Positions 19,449-21,099 of a stretch of 64,000 nucleotides of DNA are shown one piece after another. The notes under the pieces are model-generated. The model worked only from the letters and a program-made list of their open reading frames with translations, searched no databases and was not told the DNA's origin. Position 1 is the first letter of the stretch, and every line of letters starts with the position of its first letter. The DNA comes from Phycisphaerae bacterium (GTDB lineage: Bacteria > Planctomycetota > Phycisphaerae > Sedimentisphaerales > Anaerobacaceae), in the NCBI GenBank assembly GCA_017993835.1, contig JAGOLX010000006.1, positions 1 through 64,000 on the forward strand. The letters run 5' to 3'. The position numbers and the translations under genes are program-made.

Positions 19449-19568
19449 TGTTATTCCTGCGTCAAGCAGGAATCCATGAGCCGTGGGACTGGGCGCGTCC
19501 CGGGGAGTGGATTCCCGCGTTCGCGGGAATGACAAGGCGGAGTGGATTCCCGCGTTCGCGGGAATGAC
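19449..19568. repeat. Two-hairpin ATTCCCGC/ATTCCTGC repeat with tandem extra hairpin
   Basis: Hairpin 1 is attcctgc-gtcaa-gcaggaat (about 19452-19472). Hairpin 2 is attcccgc-gtt-cgcgggaat (about 19510-19530). The unit ggagtggattcccgcg..ggaatgaca is repeated once more in tandem (19539-19568). The reverse-oriented copy at 43708-43793 carries the same two hairpins without the tandem repeat, so this copy gained one hairpin. Confidence 0.8.
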
Positions 19569-19695
19569 ATCGGTGGGTCACGGGCCATCGGAGGCGATCG
19601 CCCGACCGCGATTCTGTGGGTTCGACGGAGGGTCTGGGGATGTTCGAATCCTCCTGACCCTTTGCAGGGTCGTTTCTTTCGTGCTGTGAGGTGTT

Positions 19696-21099
19696 ATGAG
19701 AATCATTGCTGACGGGAATATCCCGTTCGTTCGTGAGTGTCTTTCTTCGGTTGGCGACGTGCAGATCGTGGGCGGTCGTGAGATTACGCCGAAGGTGGTG
19801 GCGGATGCCGATGCGTTGCTCGTCCGTAGCATCACGTCGGTGAACGAGCAACTGCTTCGCGGCAGTTCCGTGCGGTTCGTCGGGACGGCAACCATCGGCT
19901 TCGACCACGTGGACGTCGCGTATCTCGAAAGGAGGGGCATCGGCTTTGCCTCCGCGCCGGGCTCGAATGCCAACTCCGCGGCCGAGTACGTCATCACGGC
20001 TCTGCTGGAGGTCGCCCGTCGACGGCATTTGCGCCTGGAGGGCAAGTCCATTGGCGTGATCGGCGTGGGGAACGTGGGCAGCCGGGTGGCGAGCAAGTGC
20101 GAGGCGTTGGGCATGGAGGTCCGCAGGAATGATCCGCCTCTCGCTCGTAGCACGGGCATCTTGCCCGTGGCCATGCAGGGGCAGGACGCCCCTGCGACTT
20201 GTGGGCGGGACGCCCATGCTGCTACGGACCCGAAGTACGTTCCGCTTGAGGCCCTGTACGACTGCGACTTCATCACGTTCCACACGCCCTTGACGCGGGA
20301 GGGGATCGACAAGACGTTCCACCTGGCGGACGGCGGGTTCTTCTCGCGTCTGAAGGCGGGGGCGGTCCTCGTCAATGCCTCGCGGGGCGCGGTCGTCGAT
20401 TCGCAGGCCCTCAAGGCCGCGATCCAGGCGGGCCGATTGCAGGCGGTCGTGCTCGACGTTTGGGAGGGCGAGCCCAGCGTCGACGTGGATCTCCTGGAGA
20501 AGGTCGATCTTGCGACGCCTCACATCGCAGGCTATTCGTTCGACGGCAAGGTCGCCGGGATGATTATGATCTATCGGTCCCTCTGCGAGCATTTCGGCCT
20601 GACGCCGAAGCACGATGTGAAGGACTTTCTGCCCGCGCCGACGGTCCCGCGGCTGGAAGTCGAGACTGGCTCGGTTGGATCGGAAAAAGGCAGATCGGGC
20701 CTATATTCTTCAACGAAATCTCTTGGTTCGATTTCGTTGAAGAATGGAAACGACGAGACTCGCGACGCGCGACCGGGGTTTGAGGGGGAAGAATCGAACC
20801 AAGAGATTCTTCCCCCTCAAAGTAGGCCCGATCTGCCTTTTTCCGATCCCTCCGCGACCGACGAGGAGCTGCTCGCTTGTGTCGTGGAACGGATCTACAG
20901 CATCTCGCAGGACGACCGGAACACGCGACAGATCGCGGATCAGCCGGCGGAGGAGCGGGGTCGTTTCTTCGACTCGCTTCGCAAAAACTACCCGGTCCGG
21001 CGGGAGTTCCAGAACACGACCGTCGTGCTCGACCGACCGCGCGAGAGCCTGGCGCGGAAGCTCCGGGGCATCGGTTTTGTAGTGGACGCGGATTCGTAG
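19696..21099 (+). CDS. pdxB: 4-phosphoerythronate dehydrogenase with two in-frame repeat insertions
   Basis: A 467-residue homologue of PdxB, the NAD-dependent second enzyme of DXP-independent pyridoxal phosphate synthesis. Catalytic and NAD-binding regions are intact: VRSITSVNEQLL, FVGTATIGFDHVD, GVIGVGNVGSRVASK, FHTPLTREG, LVNASRGAVVD, LDVWEGEP, ATPHIAGYSFDGK, and the C-terminal LRKNYPVRREF of the PdxB dimerisation domain. The E. coli enzyme has 378 residues. The excess is explained by two inserts: residues 151-177 (STGILPV...GRDAHAA), encoded by an 81-bp palindromic element, and residues about 328-385, encoded by a 173-bp element. Without them the protein would be about 381 residues. Whether the enzyme still works is unknown. 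Confidence 0.9.
   Translation: MRIIADGNIPFVRECLSSVGDVQIVGGREITPKVVADADALLVRSITSVNEQLLRGSSVRFVGTATIGFDHVDVAYLERRGIGFASAPGSNANSAAEYVITALLEVARRRHLRLEGKSIGVIGVGNVGSRVASKCEALGMEVRRNDPPLARSTGILPVAMQGQDAPATCGRDAHAATDPKYVPLEALYDCDFITFHTPLTREGIDKTFHLADGGFFSRLKAGAVLVNASRGAVVDSQALKAAIQAGRLQAVVLDVWEGEPSVDVDLLEKVDLATPHIAGYSFDGKVAGMIMIYRSLCEHFGLTPKHDVKDFLPAPTVPRLEVETGSVGSEKGRSGLYSSTKSLGSISLKNGNDETRDARPGFEGEESNQEILPPQSRPDLPFSDPSATDEELLACVVERIYSISQDDRNTRQIADQPAEERGRFFDSLRKNYPVRREFQNTTVVLDRPRESLARKLRGIGFVVDADS
20146..20226 (+). repeat. 81-bp palindromic element inside pdxB
   Basis: Exactly 81 bp (27 codons), bounded by CGTAGCA (20146-20152) and its complement TGCTACG (20220-20226). Inside are three small hairpins: cacgggca/tgcccgtg, caggggc/gcccctg and tgggc/gccca. 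The reading frame is kept across it, and the encoded peptide interrupts a place where E. coli PdxB has no matching residues (between DPPLA and the region before the second NAD-contacting strand). Confidence 0.85.
20677..20849 (+). mobile_element. Kissing-loop palindromic element, copy 1 (inside pdxB)
   Basis: 173 bp with a perfect 27-bp terminal inverted repeat (20677-20703 and 20823-20849, core GGCAGATCGGGCCTA). Hairpin A has a 15-bp stem (20705-20719/20731-20745) and loop CTCTTGGTTCG. A 33-nt spacer follows. Hairpin B has a 16-bp stem (20779-20794/20806-20821) and loop CGAACCAAGAG. The two loops are exact reverse complements. There is no stop codon in the pdxB frame, so it is translated as about 58 residues between the catalytic part and the C-terminal domain. 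No transposase is encoded; mobility is inferred from dispersed copies. Confidence 0.88.

Follow-up and report, generated by a model that had tools for sequence, protein, structure and literature searches.

An in-frame, GTAG-tagged REP array in pdxB of a Phycisphaerae bacterium and REP-flanked RAYT transposases within valS and other genes of its relatives

The pdxB gene and its REP insert

The window analyzed here, a 64,000-nucleotide stretch of DNA from the genome of a Phycisphaerae bacterium (G000), contains pdxB, the gene for erythronate-4-phosphate dehydrogenase, on the plus strand at positions 19696..21099 (467 codons; matches to PF02826, PF00389, and DUF3410; nearest structures 3oet, 2o4c, and 5dt9). 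The gene carries two in-frame inserts. The first had been recognized from the letters alone as palindromic DNA at 20146-20226 lying in frame in pdxB, and the sequence, the 467-codon ORF, and the predicted fold of this segment agree with that description (-52.1 versus -34.4 kcal/mol for dinucleotide shuffles, z -5.4, with 0 of 200 shuffles folding as stably). The second insert, at 20677-20849, is a 173-bp palindromic element with 27-bp terminal inverted repeats (GGATCGGAAAAAGGCAGATCGGGCCTA), which is also present in the sister genome G005 of the same genus and whose peptide recurs at more than 10 other places in G000, several of them inside long ORFs. By sequence the two inserts are unrelated, as the sequence-only reading had it. 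Upstream of pdxB, at 19508-19569, lie two copies of GGATTCCCGCGTTCGCGGGAATGAC, which we take to resemble CGTC-1/dRS3-type repeats.

The three small hairpins that had been noted in the first insert resolve into three REP units. Unit A (20147..20169, plus strand) consists of a GTAG tag, a stem formed by CACGGGCA and TGCCCGTG, and a TCT loop, and is read as STGILPV. The middle unit (20176..20194, plus strand) is a CAGGGGC-AGGAC-GCCCCTG hairpin read as QGQDAPAT; it is followed by a degenerate tag, CGAC, at 20195-20198, and similar middle units occur in the copies L089, L096, and L126. Unit B (20200..20222) has the opposite orientation and lies on the minus strand; the plus strand reads TGTGGGCGGGACGCCCATGCTGC and the peptide is GRDAHA. 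The same insert is found in G005, and its end can be located by comparing the right junctions of both genomes (...GCCCATGCTAC|TACC in G005 versus ...GCCCATGCTGC|TACG in G000, also written as ...CATGCTAC|TACC versus ...CATGCTGC|TACG). Thus, the element as inherited runs from GTAG to CTAC, the latter mutated to CTGC in G000, and comprises 76 bp (20147..20222, plus strand), which is not a multiple of three. The bases TACG at 20223..20226 (plus strand), formerly counted as its right terminus, belong to the flank. Of the bounds first proposed, CGTAGCA and TGCTACG, the right one thus includes flanking sequence. The insert is in frame but does not measure "exactly 27 codons", a figure that is partly an artefact of where the right boundary was drawn: the net insertion relative to the empty site amounts to 69 bp (23 codons), several target bases having been replaced.

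Six genomes of the same genus (G001, G002, G003, G006, G007, and G008) have an empty site, NDPPLQRQT(K/G)DPKY or close to it, and the site is also empty in most other relatives. Judged by these sequences, the empty site is ancestral. The REP insert entered pdxB in the lineage of G000 and G005, and the frame is open on both sides. Within the NAD-binding domain it comes after NDPP, a point at which alignment with PdxB proteins of known structure also breaks or shifts. An AlphaFold2 model of the protein (mean pLDDT 82.5) has a core that matches 3oet and 2o4c; in this model residues 160-176, which represent the REP insert, and residues 328-382, which represent the second insert, have pLDDT values below 50 and no secondary structure. 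The REP insert is thus modelled as an unstructured loop of PdxB. In G032, which belongs to another genus, an array of a different GTAG REP family (GTAGGGGCGGGTCCCCGTGCCCGCCC, 55 copies of the unit in that genome) occupies the same point, so that this loop has been hit twice. The ancestral empty site, the modelled loop, and the different REP family in G032 support the earlier suggestion that an insertion at the protein surface is tolerated here. A lone minus-strand copy of the family abundant in G032, with 3 mismatches, is located at 1828-1853 of the window.

A dispersed family of covarying hairpins

Within the 64-kb window the first 24 bases of the pdxB element occur only once. Genome-wide, the 23-bp unit at its start has 75 matches in G000 at up to 3 mismatches and 0 for the reversed control, which confirms that the element is repeated; among genomes of the genus the copy number ranges from 0 to 103 (up to 2 mismatches). 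Each unit consists of GTAG, an 8-bp stem, and a 3-nt loop. The 292 unit matches counted in G000 and G005 may include near-palindromic units twice; their stem columns are paired in 94-99% of cases, several positions show compensatory pairs (for example C-G in 161 and T-A in 95), and the GTAG tag is exact in 208. The pdxB insert thus belongs to a family of covarying hairpins with tens of copies. Most arrays are arranged head to head with GTAG outermost at both ends, the simplest being heterodimers of about 47-57 bp; in the pdxB copy a third unit, like ones found in other copies, stands in the middle, and composite arrays of unequal length share blocks. Genomes of Phycisphaerae, Opitutaceae, Competibacteraceae, Chloroflexi, Armatimonadetes, Cyanobacteria, and others contain the exact unit too. 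The arrays often have a further GTAG-tagged repeat, GTAGTGACGCCGTAAGGCGTT, next to them (L089, L092, L114, L118, and others), which seems to be part of the insert in mnmE.

GTAG at the foot of the hairpin, a compensatory stem, many dispersed head-to-head copies at mainly extragenic positions and, in the relatives G005, G003, and others, a RAYT flanked by the same REP are the features of GTAG REPs or REPINs. With high confidence, the pdxB insert can be regarded as a three-unit, non-autonomous GTAG-tagged REP element of the REPIN/BIME type.

Genic copies and their reading frame

The survey covered the loci of the G000 copies and of most G005 copies, with flanks scored by a codon-usage model trained on G000. 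In a genome that is mostly coding, 16 of 140 clusters lie in frame in an ORF that is coding on both sides; these 16 include the RAYT's own REP in valS, L078, and pdxB and rsmA, each counted in both genomes. L078 was scored in frame (L078:2460-3761), but its array joins RNase H-like and PurN-like genes and is probably intergenic. Hosts confirmed by Pfam are alaS, DUF790, rsmA, Mur ligase, mnmE, gcvT, and FGE, and furthermore mfd of G000 and anmK, aroE, and rsmA of G005. Relatives with insert-free alaS, mnmE, gcvT, mfd, rsmA, and Mur ligase genes indicate net insertions of about 99, 111, 54, 69, 159, and 147 nt, respectively (calculated by hand from coordinates), and in several insertions (pdxB, alaS, DUF790) a few host target bases were lost.

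The same peptides are encoded in unrelated proteins, and nearly all surviving genic copies read STGILPV...GQDAHAT. A length of 1 mod 3 characterizes 13 of the 16 in-frame clusters versus 42 of 96 other multi-unit copies (Fisher p = 0.007), the latter being distributed 15/42/39 over lengths of 0, 1, and 2 mod 3. Among 14 distinct in-frame inserts, 12 are entered at GTAG in codon phase 1 (p = 0.013) and 13 are left in phase 2 (p = 6e-6); the entry test considers two phases and the exit test three, because GTAG contains TAG and one entry phase is impossible. Given these mixed lengths and the rarity of genic copies, a mechanism that inserts multiples of three, which the sequence-only reading had put forward, is unsupported and a selective filter fits better. 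The converse expectation, that genic copies mostly break frames, did not materialize either: no clear frame-breaker was found in 15 cases inspected by ORF, where the element lies at gene ends or between genes, in a search that was not exhaustive since many clusters with unclear coding flanks were judged without homology. More is seen than an open frame: the encoded peptide itself seems to be filtered, because entry phase, exit phase, and length class are all biased. The simplest reading is purifying selection both on the places in which copies persist and on the peptide encoded by them. In L074, L079, L084, L097, L111, L116, L117, and L118, the TAG of GTAG is the stop codon of the upstream ORF, which in L118 looks like trmD by its N-terminus.

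RAYT transposases embedded in valS and other genes

Large ORFs of G005 and G003 contain, in frame, a RAYT (an IS200/IS605-type HUH tyrosine transposase) with inverted copies of the pdxB-type REPs on either side. Its identity follows from the NCBIfam model NF047646, REP_Tyr_transpos (84.8 bits; cut-off 80), and the nearest solved structure is 4er8, TnpA_REP. In a protein search of 60 genomes of the family, 13 proved to have a single copy, which lies in valS in 12 of these genomes (one ORF being cut by a contig end). Including G005 and G003, the 14 cases in valS share one site between GHFWY.RYPLVEP and VTVATTRPETM, and in the fused ORFs the ValRS domains found by Pfam are split around Y1_Tnp. 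G003 has a second copy within the ORF of NAD synthetase (nadE). In the phylum, 65 of 392 genomes encode a relative of this RAYT, mostly as separate short genes; in-frame copies were found in alaS (three times), purH, a FabA-like ORF, an OYE-type oxidoreductase, a helicase, several DNA methylases, and at another site of valS. In Contendobacter, a RAYT resides in an Eco57I methylase.

Of the 31 embedded copies listed, 30 have the HUH motif and, adjacent to it, the tyrosine region. The dN/dS ratio of the RAYT is 0.06-0.14 in the pairs G005-G085, G035-G015, G087-G015, and G018-G083, where dS is near saturation; in G081-G075 it is 0.40, with a dS of 0.27 for the RAYT, which is not near saturation, versus 2.63 for the host gene, which is. 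As far as motifs and substitution ratios can tell, the embedded RAYTs are intact and mostly under purifying selection. They have no stop codon of their own and are read through within the ORFs of ValRS, AlaRS, PurH, NadE, or methylases, and no splicing domain was detected by Pfam in the fused ORFs. Only one match to valS was obtained in G005, so that its fused gene probably encodes the working ValRS.

The RAYT of G005 shares 74% identity with its counterpart in G085, a member of another genus, and 52% with the one in G003, from its own genus. RAYT and ValRS distances show no clear correlation (Mantel r 0.22, p 0.10), and the data of each gene reject the tree of the other (AU p 3e-6 and 3e-7). 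This mutual rejection rules out vertical inheritance from the family ancestor as a full account. These comparisons make lateral movement into the same valS site likely, whether through homing or through recombination of segments of valS.

For G000 itself, the protein search made no cognate RAYT visible. None of five PF01797 matches has the pdxB-type REP in its flanks, and one of them, L073, belongs to another GTAG REP, GTAGCCCAGCCGCCCTCGGCTGGG. Other RAYT genes with GTAG repeats of their own are located at L073 and L268, and at L141, L259, and L260, the repeats being GTAGCCCAGCCGCCC(T/C)CGGCTGGG and GTAGGGTGGGGCTTGCCCCACC. At the position where relatives have the RAYT, the valS gene of G000 (G000:C93, L305) is interrupted by exactly 100 N; neither the window nor the element loci examined contain any other N run. 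The gap likely stems from a repeat-rich insert that broke the assembly, although sequence that had been withheld would give an identical picture, and because it covers the site, a RAYT in valS of G000 can only be inferred. The number of REPs does not closely track the valS copy, because G002, G007, and G008 have 44-59 REPs and no RAYT in valS.

Origin of the pdxB insert

Taken as a whole, the pdxB insert is very probably a non-autonomous GTAG REP array of a family presumably mobilized by a RAYT, whose surviving copies have been filtered by selection. The RAYT, or its counterpart in G000, would nick GTAG-tagged hairpins as single strands and move REP arrays to new places. Most insertions into genes would then be lost by selection, and the survivors would be those in loops that keep the frame and are read as a bland peptide, STGILPV...GQDAHAT. 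A benefit to PdxB is not needed to explain the insert. However, the loss of host target bases at several insertions is not predicted by simple IS200/IS605 insertion. This loss, and the blocks common to composite arrays of different length, would suit a spread that needs no transposase and relies solely on recombination, homologous or template-switch, among the repeats already present. We regard such a spread as improbable, because it explains neither insertions at empty, unrelated sites in many genes nor a RAYT with the same REPs at both ends.

Still less probable is that the 23 extra residues were recruited for a function in PdxB, such as stability, regulation, or partner binding, and kept for that reason. 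The PdxB proteins of G000 and G005 are 87% identical and both have kept the insert in frame, which would be in line with recruitment, as would the strongly non-random codon phase of in-frame inserts in general. However, the 9 base differences between the two inserts are spread over all three codon positions, unrelated proteins contain the same peptides, the model shows the insert as disordered, and most relatives have no insert in this loop, while G032 has another repeat family there. Least probable of all is a role as an RNA hairpin or protein-binding DNA site that controls the operon, with coding being incidental. The RNA fold is very stable, and in several copies, located at gene 3' ends, the TAG of GTAG coincides with a stop codon; Di Nocera et al. 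(2013, PMC3733652) also place REPs near the ends of genes. However, the copy in pdxB sits in the middle of its gene, and one peptide reading is favored among in-frame copies.

The RAYT-based explanation can be extended, with a confidence only slightly better than even, to a transposable element that is open in one phase along its whole length, transposase and REP ends included. Such an element could reside unspliced in essential genes (valS, alaS, purH, nadE), whose translation would include it and thereby protect it from loss. It could also pass from genus to genus into the same valS site and place in-frame REP arrays in other housekeeping genes such as pdxB. A RAYT might persist for long without obvious benefit, because most deletions would damage the essential gene. 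On its own, the pdxB insert adds one further REP-decorated protein; a RAYT in frame, and apparently unspliced, in the sole valyl-tRNA synthetase gene found in a genome, and this in many genera, would be the weightier result. Natural fusion proteins of this kind would include a synthetase that tolerates about 260 extra residues, and annotation pipelines may take such fusions for artefacts.

Comparison with known systems

Rickettsia palindromic elements (RPE) share with the present family the in-frame insertion of palindromic repeats into many unrelated protein genes. However, RPE-4 and RPE-6 are CGTC-tagged, a tag that is absent from the pdxB element, whose family is GTAG-tagged and has a RAYT; according to PMC3733652, no transposase genes are associated with CGTC repeats. 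Inteins, too, are mobile elements in frame in conserved essential genes that occupy the same site across genera and are exchanged laterally, but the fused ORFs contain no Pfam splicing domain and the insert would remain in the protein.

The closest parallels are GTAG REPs (PMC3733652) and REPINs (Bertels and Rainey, 2011, PMC3116915), which share with the present family the GTAG tag, the short GC-rich hairpin, head-to-head arrays, and tens to hundreds of copies, some of them in frame in genes. This likeness is judged from the features described in the text of PMC3733652. As that text already reports intragenic GTAG REP dimers encoding 20-30 amino acids, including in the PVC superphylum, the pdxB insert is ordinary in kind. 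A genic frame preference and an in-frame cognate transposase are, by contrast, absent from the text consulted. Searches of a literature from which subscription journals were largely missing retrieved no paper linking RAYT with valyl-tRNA synthetase, which is weak evidence for this reason, and for related combinations either nothing or PMC3733652 alone. Set against the literature searched, in which no such arrangement was found described, the in-frame REP-RAYT-REP unit appears to be new. With known RAYT/TnpA_REP proteins (PMC2817692, PMC8266576, PMC6006769; structure 4er8), the embedded transposases share the HUH motif, the catalytic tyrosine, and inverted REP flanks; unlike these, they are encoded by genes without a stop of their own and are read through within the ORFs of their hosts.
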